Below are positions 24,537 to 63,723 of a DNA stretch of 64,000 bases, piece by piece. This DNA comes from Desulfotignum sp. (GTDB lineage: Bacteria > Desulfobacterota > Desulfobacteria > Desulfobacterales > Desulfobacteraceae): contig JAABUD010000237.1 in assembly GCA_011389555.1 (NCBI GenBank), forward strand, positions 1 to 64,000. The letters run 5' to 3'. The position numbers were made by a program, and so were the translations under genes. The notes below the pieces were generated by a model. It ran no database searches, was not told the DNA's origin, and was given only the letters and a program-made list of their open reading frames with translations. Within the stretch, counting starts at the first letter, position 1, and each line of letters opens with the position of its first letter.

Positions 24537-25549
24537 AAATACTGGTGACCGGTGGTGCCGGCTATATCGGCAGCCACACCTGCGTGGCCCTTCTCGAACA
24601 GAACATGGATGTGGTGGTGGTGGACAATCTGTGCAACAGCACGGAAGCCTCCTTGACCCGGGTGGAACAGATCACCGGCAAATCCGTGGATTTCTTTACC
24701 AGGGATCTGCTGGACAAAGACGCGATCAGCCAGGTCTTTCAACGGTCCCGGCCCGATGCGGTGATTCATTTTGCCGGGCTCAAAGCCGTGGGGGAATCCA
24801 TCACCCTGCCGTTGACCTATTTTCACAACAACATCACCGGCACCTTGAACCTGTTGTCGGTCATGGCTGAATCAGATGTCAAAAAAATTATTTTTTCCTC
24901 TTCCGCCACCGTGTATGGAGATCCCGACACCCTGCCCATCACGGAAACGTTTCCGTTGTCCGTCACCAACCCCTACGGCCGGACCAAATTAATGATCGAA
25001 CAGATTCTTGAGGATCTGTTCATATCTGATCCTGCATGGCATATTGCCCGGCTCCGGTATTTCAATCCGGTGGGGGCCCATCCCAGCGGTCTGATCGGAG
25101 AAGACCCCTTAGGAATTCCCAACAATCTGGTGCCGTATATCGCCCGGGTGGCCATTGGTTCCCTGGACCGGGTCCGGGTGTTCGGCAATGATTACCCGAC
25201 CCCGGACGGCACCGGGGTCCGGGATTACATTCATGTGTGTGATCTGGCGGAAGGTCATGTCAAAACCCTGCCCAGACTGCTGGCCGCCCCCGGTGTTCTC
25301 ACCTACAACCTGGGCACGGGAAAAGGATATTCGGTATTGGAAATGATCCAGGGATTTGAACGGGCCTGCGGCCGCCCCATCCCGTATGACACAGATCCGA
25401 GGCGGCCCGGAGATATCGCAGCCTGCTGGGCCGACCCCGGCAAAGCCGAAAAAGAACTGGGGTGGAAGGCCACTCGAACCGTAGACGATATGTGTGCAGA
25501 CGCCTGGCACTGGCAGCAGAAAAATCCCCATGGCTATGACCGATCCTAA
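24533..25549 (+). CDS. galE: UDP-glucose 4-epimerase
   Basis: A 338-aa short-chain dehydrogenase fold epimerase that interconverts UDP-glucose and UDP-galactose. GGAGYIG (residues 7-13) binds NAD, SSSATVYG holds the catalytic Ser, and YGRTK gives Tyr148 and Lys152. The length is typical of GalE. The start is ATG 24533, overlapping the U32 stop; an upstream reading to 24434 lies inside the U32 gene. It likely supplies sugars for LPS. Confidence 0.95.
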   Translation: MKILVTGGAGYIGSHTCVALLEQNMDVVVVDNLCNSTEASLTRVEQITGKSVDFFTRDLLDKDAISQVFQRSRPDAVIHFAGLKAVGESITLPLTYFHNNITGTLNLLSVMAESDVKKIIFSSSATVYGDPDTLPITETFPLSVTNPYGRTKLMIEQILEDLFISDPAWHIARLRYFNPVGAHPSGLIGEDPLGIPNNLVPYIARVAIGSLDRVRVFGNDYPTPDGTGVRDYIHVCDLAEGHVKTLPRLLAAPGVLTYNLGTGKGYSVLEMIQGFERACGRPIPYDTDPRRPGDIAACWADPGKAEKELGWKATRTVDDMCADAWHWQQKNPHGYDRS

Positions 25550-59025: not shown

Positions 59026-60216
59026 TTACTCCAGGGTGATCCAGTCGGTCAAACGTTTCGCTTTACCGCCTTCCAGGCATTTGACCAGAAAGGTCTGGCG
59101 GGTGCCCTGGCGGGAATACATGTCATCCGGATCGAACGGCTTGAAATTCACTTCCGGCCCGATCCCCTTGAATCCGGAAATCTTTTCCATCTCCGCCACA
59201 AACCTTTCCCGGGTCAGGTCGGGTCCGGCATTTTTCAGCGCCTCGACCATGGGTTCGATAAAAATAATGCCGGCCGCATAAAACATGCCCCAGCGCTCCT
59301 CTTTGGCAGCGAACTGCTCGAACACATCCTTTTTGTACTGCTGCATCTGGGGGTGATCCGAATCCGGGAGTTCCCCGAACGTGGCACAGATCACGCCTTC
59401 CCACAGCCCCTTGGAAATATGGGTCATCAGCGGAAAATCGGAACAGGTGCTGGTGCTCATGAACTGGGGGGCGAAATTCATGGCCTTGGCCGTGCCCACG
59501 ATGCGCACTGCATGGCTCACCGTGGTCCACAGCAGCACCATGTCTGCATCGGCTTTTCTCAGTTTCATCACATGGGGTTTCATGTCTGAATCGCTTTTTT
59601 CCACGGGCACCTGGGCCACCGTCTCCATGCCATGAACTTTCAATTCCTCGATGGCGCCCCGCAGGCCGTTCTTTCCGTATTCATCATTCAGATAGGCCAC
59701 GGCCACCCGTTTTTTGCCCATCTCTTCCACGGCATACCCCACCAGGGCCCGGGCTTCGTTGTAATACAGCGGATAGACCCCGAACAGATATTTTTGCGGC
59801 GGCGATACCCAGTGCAGGGATCCGGCTGCCGGCCCTACCCAGGGAATTTTTCTTTCCATGAGATAATCTTTGACCGCCAGGCCCGGTGACGTCCCCACAC
59901 CCGAAGCCCAGGCAAAAATTCCGGTCCCCTCCTGGAGCTCTTTGACCCCGGCCAGGGTTTTGGCCGGGTTGTACCCGTCATCAAACATATGGTACACGAG
60001 TTTACGGCCATGGATCCCACCCGTTGAATTGATCCATTTAAAATAATCCCCGGTACCCCGGGCCACCGATCCCCAGGCCGCGGCCGGGCCGGTCTGGGGG
60101 CCCCACTGACCGATGTGGATTTCAGTGTCGGTCACCCCTTCCTCACTCCAGGCCAGTGACACAGACATCAGCAGAAACACCATACACCCGAACAATACCA
60201 TCAAGCCTTTTTTCAT
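59026..60216 (-). CDS. livK: Periplasmic substrate-binding protein, LivK-like
   Basis: A 396-aa secreted binding protein: signal peptide MKKGLMVLFGCMVFLLMS with cleavage near the SLAWSEEG segment, then TEIHIGQWGPQTGPAAAWG at the start of the type I binding fold, and YFKWINSTGGIHGRKL. GGAGG precedes ATG 60216. The ligand is unknown; the acyl-CoA ligase suggests a carboxylate, which is an inference. Confidence 0.9.
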   Translation of the reverse strand: MKKGLMVLFGCMVFLLMSVSLAWSEEGVTDTEIHIGQWGPQTGPAAAWGSVARGTGDYFKWINSTGGIHGRKLVYHMFDDGYNPAKTLAGVKELQEGTGIFAWASGVGTSPGLAVKDYLMERKIPWVGPAAGSLHWVSPPQKYLFGVYPLYYNEARALVGYAVEEMGKKRVAVAYLNDEYGKNGLRGAIEELKVHGMETVAQVPVEKSDSDMKPHVMKLRKADADMVLLWTTVSHAVRIVGTAKAMNFAPQFMSTSTCSDFPLMTHISKGLWEGVICATFGELPDSDHPQMQQYKKDVFEQFAAKEERWGMFYAAGIIFIEPMVEALKNAGPDLTRERFVAEMEKISGFKGIGPEVNFKPFDPDDMYSRQGTRQTFLVKCLEGGKAKRLTDWITLE

Positions 60217-60305
60217 GACATCCTCCTTTGTATCGGTTGTGAGGTCGTTTGTGCGGGACCACAACAGGCCAATAAGCCAATCCCGACCCCGCCCGGCCTC
60301 TTTTT

Positions 60306-61181
60306 TTACACTTTCTTCACGTAATGCCTGGCAAACAGGCCGCTGGGTTTGAAACAGAGCACCAGCACAATGATGGCAAAGGCCACCACGGATTTGAATT
60401 CAATGGACACATATCCGCCGAACAGGTTCTCGATGATCCCCAGCAGATAGGCGGCCGCCACGGCCCCGGGCAGGGAGGTCATGCCCCCCATGACCGCGGC
60501 CGCAAACCCTTTGAGCATGGGGTCCCACATCATGAACGGATGCATGATCACCGGGGATATCAACAGCCCGGCCGTGGCCCCCACCACCGATGAAATCGCC
60601 CAGGTCATCATCATGATCCGGTTGGTGCGGACCCCCACAATCTTTGCTGCCACCGCATTCTGCTGGGTCGCTTTCATGGCCAGTCCCAGCCGGGTGAATC
60701 TGAAGAAAAAAAACAGCAGACACATCAGAACCAGGGCCGATACCAGGGTCAACACCTCCAGTTTGGCAATGAAGAGATCACCGATGATAAAACTGTCATA
60801 AGGGCCGATGGGAAAAGGCATGGTTTTCTGCTCCGCCCCGAATTTCCAGGAAACCAGCCCCAGCAGGATCATTTCCAGTCCGATGGTGATGACAATGGTG
60901 CCCAGAATGTTGGGATCTTTGGCCCTCCTGAGCACGGCGAACTCCAGGAACGCCCCCAGGAATGCGGCAAACACCAGGGCCAGACAGAACGCCAGCCAGA
61001 CCGGATAGCTGAATGCCGTGAGCAGCATCATGGTGAAAAATGAGGTCGCCAGGGCCATCTCTCCCTGGGCGAAATTGGGGACCTCGGAGGTCTTGTAAAT
61101 GATCACCATGGCAAGCCCCATGAGTGCGTAAGAACTGCCCACTGCCACACCGCTGACAACCATCTGCAAAAAATCAATCAT
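60306..61181 (-). CDS. livH: Branched-chain-type ABC permease LivH
   Basis: A 291-aa permease with about eight helices. GSSYALMGLAMVIIYKTSEVPNFAQGEM is the LivH N-terminal block, and AVAAYLLGIIENLF is near the end. The start is ATG 61181 (MIDFLQ) with GGAAG 6 nt upstream. Confidence 0.92.
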   Translation of the reverse strand: MIDFLQMVVSGVAVGSSYALMGLAMVIIYKTSEVPNFAQGEMALATSFFTMMLLTAFSYPVWLAFCLALVFAAFLGAFLEFAVLRRAKDPNILGTIVITIGLEMILLGLVSWKFGAEQKTMPFPIGPYDSFIIGDLFIAKLEVLTLVSALVLMCLLFFFFRFTRLGLAMKATQQNAVAAKIVGVRTNRIMMMTWAISSVVGATAGLLISPVIMHPFMMWDPMLKGFAAAVMGGMTSLPGAVAAAYLLGIIENLFGGYVSIEFKSVVAFAIIVLVLCFKPSGLFARHYVKKV

Positions 61182-61275
61182 ACCCGCTTCCTTTCCCACA
61201 CACCATCCATCCTCTGATACCCGACCCCCCAACCTGAAAAAAGACCTGAAAAAAAGCCGGCCCCGGCCCTGGTTA

Positions 61276-62325
61276 TCAAAACGGCCAGGTCCGCCAGTAC
61301 CGTTTGGTTCTCAGCCATACCCCGTAAAGCCCCAGGGGCTCGAACAGCATGATGGCCACCATGATGGAACCGAACACGATATACTGAATATTGGACACCC
61401 CGGTGATGGAAAACCAGGATTTGGACAGGGTTTCCAGCCAGTCTCCCAGCAGGGGGATGTTCAGGATATTTCTGAGTTTCAGATCCAGCCAGCACAGCAG
61501 GCCGGCCCCCACCACCGGCCCCACCAGAGACCCCAGGCCCCCCACCACCACCATGGCCAGAAACATGATGGACATCATCAAAGTAAAGATTTCCGGTTCG
61601 ATGAACCGGAGGACAAACGCATAGAGACCACCGCCGATGCCGGCGTAAAATGCGGACACGGCAAAGGCCAGGGTTTTGTAGAACACGATGTTCACGCCCA
61701 TGGTCTGGGCCGCGATATCCGCATCCCGGATCGCAATGAAAGCCCGGCCCACCCGGGTCTTGATCAGGCTTCGCATGCCCAGCAGCAGCAGCACCGTGAT
61801 TCCGATCAGAAGAAAATAAAACTGCCGGTCCGTGTCCACCGCCCAGGGGCCGATGACCAGATCCGGTGCATGGAGCCCTTCTCTGCCGCCGAACAGTTCC
61901 AGGCGCCCAATCACCTGGGTGATGGTCAGCCCGAATCCCAGTGTGGCGATAGCCAGGTAAGGGCCTTCCAGGCGCAGGGCCGGCAGGCCCAGGAGAAACC
62001 CGAATCCGGCCGCCACCAGTCCGGCGCAGGGCAGTGCCACAAGAAAGGGTAACCCGGCGCTGGTCATGAGAATCACCGTGCCATAGGCCCCGATGGCAAA
62101 AAAACCGGCATGGCCCAGGCTGATCTGCCCCGTATATCCCACCAGCAGGTTCAGGCCGACGGCCACAATGATGTTGATGGCGATATAGTTGGCCACATAC
62201 ACGTAATAATTGCTGACAACAAAAGGAAACATCAGAAGCGTCACCATGAGCACGGCCAGCCAGAACAAAACCACCGGCGACGTGACAAGCTGAACATCTT
62301 CATAATAATCGCGCTTCATATCCAT
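61276..62325 (-). CDS. livM: Branched-chain-type ABC permease LivM
   Basis: A 349-aa permease with about ten helices. NLLVGYTGQISLGHAGFFAIGAYG and AFIAIRDADIAAQTMGVN are the LivM marks. ATG 62325 has GGGAG 8 nt upstream. First gene of the operon; transcription runs livM-livH-livK-livG-livF-ligase. Confidence 0.92.
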   Translation of the reverse strand: MDMKRDYYEDVQLVTSPVVLFWLAVLMVTLLMFPFVVSNYYVYVANYIAINIIVAVGLNLLVGYTGQISLGHAGFFAIGAYGTVILMTSAGLPFLVALPCAGLVAAGFGFLLGLPALRLEGPYLAIATLGFGLTITQVIGRLELFGGREGLHAPDLVIGPWAVDTDRQFYFLLIGITVLLLLGMRSLIKTRVGRAFIAIRDADIAAQTMGVNIVFYKTLAFAVSAFYAGIGGGLYAFVLRFIEPEIFTLMMSIMFLAMVVVGGLGSLVGPVVGAGLLCWLDLKLRNILNIPLLGDWLETLSKSWFSITGVSNIQYIVFGSIMVAIMLFEPLGLYGVWLRTKRYWRTWPF

Positions 62326-62378
62326 GGGCCACACTCCCTGAAGGGTAATCCGCTCGTTCGGCAAACTTGTCCTATACT

Positions 62379-62406: not shown

Positions 62407-62499
62407 GAAGAAAAAAAAATGACCGGGATCCGGCATTTATGTGCTTGACTTAATGATCCAGATATGGTTTAGCTCAATAAACTTAACGGAGCGTTTCAC

Positions 62500-62574
62500 A
62501 TGAATTACCGCATCACAGACAGACCCTGTTACTATTTCTGGTATTATTATACAGAACTGCCTGGGCTGCGATAA
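62500..62574 (+). CDS. Aromatic-rich leader peptide of DAHP synthase
   Basis: A 24-aa ORF, ATG 62500 to TAA 62574, with GGAG 8 nt upstream. Residues 11-17 are YYFWYYY, and Tyr3 adds a sixth Tyr. Such a run, followed by a terminator and then a gene for aromatic amino acid synthesis, is the hallmark of trp/phe-type attenuators: ribosome stalling at Tyr (or Phe/Trp) codons would favour an antiterminator. It is too short for ordinary gene finding. Confidence 0.8.
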   Translation: MNYRITDRPCYYFWYYYTELPGLR

Positions 62575-62594
62575 ACCAACACTTCATATCAAAC

Positions 62595-62631
62595 AAAAAG
62601 CCGCAGGCACTCACACCGTCTGCGGCTTTTT
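62595..62631 (+). terminator. Attenuator terminator before DAHP synthase
   Basis: A 12-bp stem, AAAAAGCCGCAG with CTGCGGCTTTTT, and a 13-nt loop, 20 nt after the leader stop and 55 nt before the aroF ATG. The leader's 3' end offers alternative pairing: GCCTG (62559-62563) with CAGGC (62604-62608), or CTGCG (62566-62570) with CGCAG (62602-62606), which would block the terminator. Confidence 0.85.
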
Positions 62632-62685
62632 GCATTTCAAGGGCTTTGGGCGGCAGGGTTCTGATGACCGGCAAAGGAGACCGCC

Positions 62686-63723
62686 ATGAAAAAGACCTTT
62701 GACATCCACGTAAAAGAGTTCAAACCCCTGATATCCCCCACAAAGATGAAGCAGGTTCTGCCATTGACGGAGGGGGCCGTTCAAACGGTTGTTTCCGGCC
62801 GAAAAGAGGTCGTGGATATTCTGACGGGACACGACGAACGCCTGCTGGTCATTGCCGGACCCTGTTCCATCCATGATCCGGAAGCGGCCCTGGAATACGC
62901 GCAAAAAATGATGGCACTGCGCCGGGAAGTATCCGATAAAATCAACCTGATCATGCGGGTATATTTTGAGAAACCCCGCACCACCGTGGGGTGGAAAGGA
63001 CTGATCAACGATCCGTTTCTGGATGCCTCTTTCAATGTCAATGCCGGCCTGGAGAGTGCCAGAAAACTGCTCATCGATATCAATGACACAGGACTGCCCA
63101 CGGCCACGGAAATACTGGACCCCATCACTCCTCAGTATATTGCCGGGCTGCTCGCCTGGGTGGCCATCGGGGCCCGGACCACCGAGTCCCAGACCCACCG
63201 GGAAATGGCATCGGGCCTGTCCATGCCCGTGGGGTTCAAGAACAGCACAGACGGGCGGATTTCAGCGGCCGTCAACGCCATTCAGGCAGCCGGATCTCCC
63301 CAGCATTTTCTGGGCATTGACCCGGACGGCCGGTCCGCAGTGGTTTCCACCCGGGGCAACCCGTTCTGCCACCTGGTTCTGCGGGGCGGCGGCACACCGA
63401 ACTATGATCCGGTGTCCGTGGGACGGGCCCAGGCCATTCTTCAGCACAAACACCTGTCGGACGGCCTGATCATTGACTGTTCCCATGACAATTCCGGCCA
63501 GAAACATACGGGTCAGGCATTTGTGTTCAAAAGCGCACTGGACCAGCGGCTTGAAGGCAATTCCGGTATCCGGGGCCTGATGCTGGAAAGCAACCTGTTT
63601 GAAGGCCGCCAGAACTGCCCCGGGGACCGGTGTGCCCTTGAGTACGGGGTATCCATCACGGATGAATGCATCTCATGGCAGACGACCACCCAATTGATCC
63701 GGTGCGCTTACAGCCGGTTGTGA
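62686..63723 (+). CDS. aroF: 3-deoxy-7-phosphoheptulonate synthase (DAHP synthase, AroF/G/H type)
   Basis: A 345-aa class I DAHP synthase that joins PEP and erythrose-4-phosphate, the first step of the shikimate pathway. IAGPCSIHDPEAALEYA, MRVYFEKPRTTVGWKGLINDP, and GARTTESQTHR are present; the metal residues lie in the DCSHDNSGQK and late ECISW segments. The Tyr-rich leader suggests control by tyrosine supply. AAAGGAGA is 5 nt before the ATG. Confidence 0.95.
   Translation: MKKTFDIHVKEFKPLISPTKMKQVLPLTEGAVQTVVSGRKEVVDILTGHDERLLVIAGPCSIHDPEAALEYAQKMMALRREVSDKINLIMRVYFEKPRTTVGWKGLINDPFLDASFNVNAGLESARKLLIDINDTGLPTATEILDPITPQYIAGLLAWVAIGARTTESQTHREMASGLSMPVGFKNSTDGRISAAVNAIQAAGSPQHFLGIDPDGRSAVVSTRGNPFCHLVLRGGGTPNYDPVSVGRAQAILQHKHLSDGLIIDCSHDNSGQKHTGQAFVFKSALDQRLEGNSGIRGLMLESNLFEGRQNCPGDRCALEYGVSITDECISWQTTTQLIRCAYSRL

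Follow-up and report, generated by a model that had tools for sequence, protein, structure and literature searches.

In the pheL-pheA and trpL-trpEDCBA leaders of E. coli, attenuation depends on the mutually exclusive helices 1:2, 2:3 and 3:4, on control codons for the product of the pathway and on a terminator with a U tract. An attenuator of aroR-aroF in Corynebacterium glutamicum was reportedly described by Neshat et al. in 2014. The parts of PMC11802643 and PMC4046766 that deal with aroR-aroF describe a Phe-Tyr-Phe leader before the DAHP synthase gene, at which stalling is reported to raise transcription, and report a response to Phe and not to Tyr; the former also names pheL-pheA and trpL-trpEDCBA as attenuators of E. 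coli. For Acholeplasma, the relevant section of PMC8632094 lists uORFC-13-1 upstream of aroF, a predicted upstream ORF (uORF) with an intrinsic terminator in 24 examples, and notes that aroF attenuation had been hypothesised for E. coli (Camakaris 1980). In PMC1173090, Table 7 further contains predicted attenuators ahead of the DAHP-synthase/tyrA operons of Vibrio and of the aro-trp supraoperon in Desulfovibrio vulgaris. The tyrosine genes of other species are placed under T-boxes in the portion of PMC1262725 (2005) that concerns them. Attenuation of DAHP synthase is thus already published (C. glutamicum) or predicted (Acholeplasma), and the leader described here is distinguished by an unusual mixed aromatic run and by its wide conservation. 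Our search of the open-access literature found no description of an aroF leader in Desulfobacterota.

The leader analyzed here lies in a stretch of 64,000 nucleotides, referred to as the window, from a genome whose closest named relatives by synthase identity are Desulfotignum MAGs (89% and 83%). It sits between a branched-chain amino acid ABC permease gene on the minus strand (61276–62364) and a DAHP synthase gene, and we consider it very probable that it is a classical, trp/phe-type ribosome-mediated transcription attenuator of the latter. The divergent minus-strand genes (59026–62364) encode an ordinary ABC transporter of the branched-chain amino acid type, consisting of a substrate-binding protein and two permeases.

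All of the elements of the leader are on the plus strand. The promoter-like element ahead of it reads TTGACT...TGGTTTAGC, with a putative –35 TTGACT (62445–62450), in which TTGAC is the same in all 10 aligned sequences of the genus, and, 17 nt after it, a putative extended –10 TGG-TTTAGC (62465–62473), which is near-invariant in 10 genus sequences. A Shine-Dalgarno GGAG (62488–62491) is located 8 nt before the ATG at 62500, where a 24-codon ORF begins that encodes MNYRITDRPCYYFWYYYTELPGLR, ends with TAA at 62572–62574 and is kept in relatives. Its codons 11–17 (62530–62550) are seven consecutive aromatic codons, Tyr Tyr Phe Trp Tyr Tyr Tyr; in relatives the run reaches up to 9 codons, and it is interrupted in many. 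The aroF-like gene (62686–63723, 345 aa) starts 111 nt after the stop codon of the leader, behind a Shine-Dalgarno AAAGGAG (62673–62679), and it matches the NCBIfam profiles PRK12755.1 (E 9.8e-149) and aroFGH TIGR00034 (E 1e-138) above their cut-offs, which makes it a type I (AroFGH) DAHP synthase gene. The first-pass annotation had proposed just such a 24-codon ORF with GGAG, a YYFWYYY run and aroF downstream, and the sequence agrees on all three points. It also proposed a 12-bp terminator with a T-run and an antiterminator option, of which the hairpin, its T5 and the alternative pairing stand, although the hairpin length was slightly undercounted.

The intrinsic terminator hairpin (62594–62632) consists of arms at 62594–62608 and 62618–62632 that form 15 pairs, 9 of them in a GC-rich core, closed by a 9-base loop (62609–62617), with the T5 at 62627–62631 within the 3′ arm. 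The hairpin alone has a folding energy of –24.0 kcal/mol. Our pattern scan, with its loop limit of 8, excludes a 9-base loop, and neither this terminator nor a promoter at this place is on its list. Region 3 (62600–62608) is common to the terminator, where it pairs with region 4 (62618–62626), the GC-rich 3′ arm, and to the antiterminator, where 62558–62567 pairs with the terminator 5′ arm at –14.7 kcal/mol. Region 2 (62557–62571), the 5′ half of the antiterminator, lies inside the ORF and codes for the conserved peptide end LPGLR. Its own alternative partner is region 1 (62509–62522). The anatomy comprises the following parts of an attenuator: a leader ORF with a ribosome-binding site, an aromatic run, a terminator, an antiterminator and a region 1:2 helix, preceded by the promoter-like element from which the transcript would begin. 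The leader folds with z = –5.28, and its full-length minimum free energy (MFE) structure is made up of helices 1:2 plus 3:4. In a model of a shortened window RNA without a ribosome, the 2:3 pairing reaches 0.89, so that termination on untranslated RNA is not predicted in that model. A second GC hairpin followed by a T tract, forming tandem terminators, was observed in 24 of 106 class leaders (for example L026, L142, L143, L148 and L190), and no second terminator hairpin was seen in the window leader.

In the Rfam search, no family matched the leader at its gathering score; sub-threshold scores included 31.5 of 45 bits for STnc40, 23.4 of 59 for the trpB motif and 13.7 of 55 for Thr_leader. No T-box riboswitch was detected, as the whole-window search at gathering scores gave only two tRNAs, with a library in which we take the T-box model to be present.

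As compared to the described systems, the window leader shares with pheL and trpL of E. coli the helices 1:2, 2:3 and 3:4, control codons for products of the pathway and the U-tract terminator. However, each of those leaders is devoted to one amino acid and controls a branch enzyme, whereas here a mixed run precedes the first-step enzyme. The parts of the aroR literature cited above likewise present an aromatic-codon leader peptide ahead of a DAHP synthase gene, but that leader is actinobacterial and has a three-codon motif, in contrast to the Tyr-rich run of up to 9 aromatic codons and the region 2 inside the ORF found here. The uORFC-13-1 element, in the section that describes it, is again a uORF and a terminator before a DAHP synthase gene, but its U run codes for at least one Phe and it belongs to another phylum. 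The likeness to aroR and uORFC-13-1 is in kind only. The tabulated predictions of PMC1173090 similarly place attenuators at aromatic genes of γ- and δ-Proteobacteria, in gene orders that differ from that of the window, and the relevant passages name no leader peptide for them.

To assess the alternative helices by covariation, 71 leaders were aligned by reference from 98 distinct ones, after the exclusion of near-duplicates and a few leaders with misplaced hairpins. In the terminator, 96.3% of cells are paired, and 51 cells show double changes as compared to 12.8 in shuffles, with none of the 500 shuffles as high; the signal vanishes when the partner is slid. In the antiterminator (columns 20–30 with 73–84), 82.6% of cells are paired (0/500 shuffles as high), the double-change cells number 41 versus 14.1 in shuffles (0/500), and the covariation score is 0.219 versus 0.157 (0/500). 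Two further measures, the pairs changed on both sides (6 versus 4.8; 122/500 shuffles) and the pair types (17 versus 15.2; 88/500), are not clearly higher than in shuffles, so that three of five antiterminator measures stand at 0/500 and two are not distinct from shuffles. Two inner antiterminator pairs often fail, with 29–74 formed in 32 and 30–73 in 52 of the 71 leaders. Alignment column 77 varies with its terminator partner and also with its antiterminator partner, as expected of a shared strand. In 106 leaders, with a statistic that ignores relatedness, the region 2:3 duplex has –20.0 kcal/mol with its own partner and –18.0 (sd 0.24) with swapped partners, and region 1:2 has –19.4 and –15.2 (sd 0.31). 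The covariation of the alternative stems, which had been suggested as a check, is therefore clear for the terminator and holds on three of five measures for the antiterminator, whose pairing is conserved with compensatory changes.

From the parts of the leader, which are conserved and whose competing helices covary, we infer how promoter use, stalling, termination, read-through and amino acid sensing would proceed. Transcription would probably start just upstream of the leader, and a ribosome would translate the 24 codons behind RNA polymerase. When charged aromatic tRNAs are ample, the ribosome would reach the stop codon and cover region 2 (codons 20–24), regions 3 and 4 would then form the terminator, and transcription would end before aroF. 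If charged tRNA-Tyr runs low, and probably also if charged tRNA-Phe or tRNA-Trp does, the ribosome would wait at codons 11–16, region 2 would pair with region 3, the terminator would not form and aroF would be transcribed. A model of the ribosome geometry that assumes a footprint from –16 to +13 gives a mean 2:3 pairing of 0.88–0.89 with the A site at codons 11–16; the value drops to 0.50 at codon 17 and 0.48 at codon 18, and to 0.0 at codons 20, 22 and stop. In this geometry, a ribosome stalled at any one of Tyr11, Tyr12, Phe13, Trp14, Tyr15 and Tyr16 would still allow the antiterminator to form.

The codon content bears on the signal that is sensed. The best ten-codon windows of 108 leaders contain 849 aromatic codons (495 Tyr, 307 Phe and 47 Trp). 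Relative to the 41 long ORFs of the window, which contain 1353 (410 Tyr, 786 Phe and 157 Trp), the leaders are thus enriched in Tyr. Tyr is found in 108/108 leaders, Phe in 103/108 and Trp in 46/108. The stalling at Tyr codons that was initially proposed is thus plausible, but with these Phe and Trp codons the sensing may not be confined to Tyr. Tyr is the likeliest signal, Phe is likely an additional one, and Trp is a possible signal in the leaders that keep a Trp codon. Codons ending in T are commoner in the leaders (TAT 411, TAC 84, TTT 257, TTC 50) than in the long ORFs of the window (TAT 245, TAC 165, TTT 444, TTC 342), a comparison that sets many species against one genome, and they would keep the aromatic run unstructured. 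On the enzyme side, all 17 synthases inspected, including two enterobacterial ones, carry the Gly of the FLG/FIG/FVG motif, a residue that may be linked to the Tyr sensitivity of DAHP synthase.

The same anatomy could be used by a TnaC-like device, in which the aromatic nascent peptide, perhaps by binding a free aromatic amino acid, halts the ribosome and thereby controls the terminator. The peptide end, with its LPGLR, LPVLR and GLPGVR variants, is indeed well conserved, as such an arrest peptide might be. On the other hand, Tyr, Phe and Trp interchange along the run (by the codon counts given above for 108 leaders), unlike fixed arrest residues, and changes that preserve the pairing alter the peptide end, for example to GPPRVR in L160 and GSPGVR in L164. 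The peptide end thus seems to be conserved for RNA pairing rather than for the function of the peptide, and we regard nascent-peptide arrest as quite improbable.

To follow the leader across the class, we sampled 291 genomes, of which 129 had any synthase match, some of them weak. With fragments and weak matches left out, 131 upstream regions with a gene start were read (42 loci and 89 fetched stretches). The best 8-codon window within 400 nt of the gene has at least 6 aromatic codons in 101/131 regions on the forward strand as compared to 2/131 on the reverse strand. With at least 5 of 8 aromatic codons, 109 of the 131 loci have a leader, or 108 after removal of one of an identical pair, and an SD-like motif of at least 3 nt, a loose criterion, is present in 102/108. 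L199 and L211 also reached at least 5 of 8 aromatic codons but were dropped as spurious from the 111 candidates. A terminator was called automatically in 102/111 candidates, the nine misses including the spurious L199 and L211; in some loci, the simple scan picked a second, downstream hairpin. The comparison of the aroF upstream regions of relatives, which the first-pass annotation had recommended, thus returns both the aromatic run and the terminator, and with the antiterminator conserved as well, control of the DAHP synthase gene by an attenuator appears strongly supported. The two contrary outcomes named in that annotation, a lack of conservation in close relatives and transcripts that begin downstream of the leader, did not appear, the second being addressed only indirectly through the promoter-like element conserved before the leader.

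The 22 leaderless loci among the 131 comprise 14 second copies and the lone copy L199 (49% identity); the remaining 7 are first or lone copies (52–60%). Since the 14 second copies have no leader, AroFGH-type copies are probably controlled differently. These leaderless second AroFGH-type copies, with 48–57% identity, are L189, L191, L192, L196–L198, L200–L206 and L211.

In the phylum sample of 345 genomes, 80 had a match and 56 upstream regions were read. In 12 of these 56 regions from elsewhere in the phylum (L282–L290, L292, L294 and L313), an aromatic-run leader is followed by a GC hairpin, and the other 44 have no such leader; the reverse strand reaches at least 6 aromatic codons in 1/56. 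Among the named loci L046–L110, the run plus terminator occurs in L048 and L052, whereas L049, L050, L084 and L091 have 6 of 8 aromatic codons and yet fail when a terminator is required; L066 and L096 have too little upstream DNA. A quick tree was built of 103 synthases, after removal of 7 truncated or near-duplicate loci and with leader labels assigned by the aromatic run. In it, the synthases with a leader group in a single clade (SH-aLRT 100), 39 of whose 40 rows have one. L048 is inside this clade, and L052 is placed elsewhere. The latter, upstream of position 1501 in a Latescibacterota MAG, is a leader RYFYFYFYY with a terminator before a DAHP synthase gene; it may reflect independent origin, transfer or contamination of the MAG.

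The promoter region invites a second alternative, namely that the main control is exerted there by a repressor of the TrpR or TyrR type, with the leader as a minor add-on. The host genome has TyrR-type HTH domains and a TrpR-family protein, and the –10 region GGTTTAGCT is near-invariant within the genus. However, GGTTTAG occurs in only 12/108 leaders and is lost beyond the genus and a few neighbours, while the run, the terminator and the antiterminator persist, which makes this reading a quite improbable one. The genus-wide –10-like GTTTAGCT was considered as a repressor site and rejected, as it is absent beyond the genus and a few neighbours. Across the class, 93/108 leaders have TTGAC in the 85 nt that precede their start, versus 7/108 on the other strand. 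The TrpR-family protein (E 3.4e-17) is encoded at 25538–25783 of contig 124 of the host genome (G000; L342 region). With these two kinds of regulator in the genome, repression at the promoter may be added to attenuation by the leader.

Chance was evaluated with a criterion of an ORF of at most 60 codons, at least 6 of 8 aromatic codons and a terminator within 90 nt. On both strands of the 64-kb window, the single such case is this leader. In L001–L122 (951,116 bases, both strands counted), such an ORF with its terminator lies within 400 nt upstream of the synthase in 52 of 122 loci, and just one case occurs away from the synthase upstream regions. When 20,000 sequences were simulated with a first-order Markov model of the local region, an ORF with at least 7 of 8 aromatic codons arose in 2 of them, and none contained such an ORF together with a terminator. 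Five-codon F/Y patterns occur at 51 places in the host genome as compared to 105 for a control pattern; none of the ten stretches inspected among the 51 had a recognisable leader. Runs interrupted by Trp escape this pattern, and so did the Phe-run leader of the fused synthase described below.

That a chance short ORF stands before an ordinary constitutive terminator or an insulating hairpin is conceivable in principle, in that intrinsic terminators are common between genes and short F/Y runs do arise by chance, as the 51 places show. Nevertheless, the empty simulations, the leader in 109/131 loci, the covariation and the single clade all speak against it, and, with the upstream neighbour on the minus strand, the terminator has no preceding gene on its own strand to end; we give this explanation hardly any credence. 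Translational coupling or reinitiation from the leader onto aroF, instead of transcription termination, could be read into the 111-nt spacing of the leader stop and the aroF start, but it is just as improbable given the terminator-like hairpin that lies between the leader and the gene in the 102 of 111 candidates as scanned, at 25 to 235 nt from the gene.

Transcription attenuation of the AroFGH-type synthase in the window has to be placed among the other DAHP synthases of the host genome. The window synthase is the only AroFGH-type copy found there, and two further synthases, of the B. subtilis type, are encoded on contigs 121 and 24; no type II DAHP synthase was found in the genome, and contig 124 contains a weaker match below the cut-off. 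The control of DAHP synthase in this lineage that was originally claimed would thus concern the AroFGH-type enzyme, a narrower scope, as this is one of three synthases in the genome. The synthase on contig 24 is fused with prephenate dehydratase, and its gene is preceded by a Phe-run leader MMKRMTPQFVCNFGRFFFFRSVHPV and a terminator CCCCGGGTGGAC..GCCACCCGGGG (L249:180–320), and pairing is possible between GTTCATCCGG in this leader and CCGGGTGGAC in the terminator. The third synthase, a 348-aa frame on contig 121 (L341), has no upstream aromatic run above 4 of 8.

Similar leaders accompany related genes in this and other genomes. Among 30 prephenate dehydratase loci, 17 have a B. subtilis-type synthase adjoining or fused, and a Phe-run leader precedes 15 of these 17; for four of the 15 leaders (L235, L236, L249 and L250), the terminator was read as well. 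None of the other 13 loci has a Phe-run leader. One of the 13, L248, has RYFFFFRYF with a terminator. In L237:947–1110 (reverse strand; G014), a mixed-aromatic leader of the aroF type, RYFFYFWFYFRTGLQAVC, and a terminator were observed before the prephenate dehydratase gene. Upstream of trpE, a run of at least three Trp codons with a terminator-like match is present in at least 11 of 30 loci, and no Trp-run leader was seen at the trpE of the host itself. The Trp-run trpE leaders within the same order are L253, L254, L256, L258, L259, L261, L263, L266, L268, L269 and L271. Taken together, the runs are Tyr-rich at aroF, Phe at the fused synthase and, in relatives, Trp at trpE, indicating that the leader codons differ by gene.

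In enteric bacteria, three DAHP synthase isozymes are under the control of TyrR and TrpR. In the host of the window, we lean slightly towards an isozyme-specific attenuation, in which the DAHP synthases of one genome are split among different leaders, one Tyr-rich and mixed, one a Phe run, and one synthase with none found. The mixed run of the aroF leader would then possibly serve as an OR gate for shortage of Tyr, Phe or Trp. More broadly, control of the first aromatic-pathway enzyme by attenuation appears to be common to most of the AroFGH-type loci read in the class and to some elsewhere in the phylum. The presence of a mixed aroF leader and a Phe-run leader in one genome suggests that the codons of the leaders distinguish between isozymes of a single step and, if this is true, attenuation would be doing here what enteric bacteria do via TyrR and TrpR.
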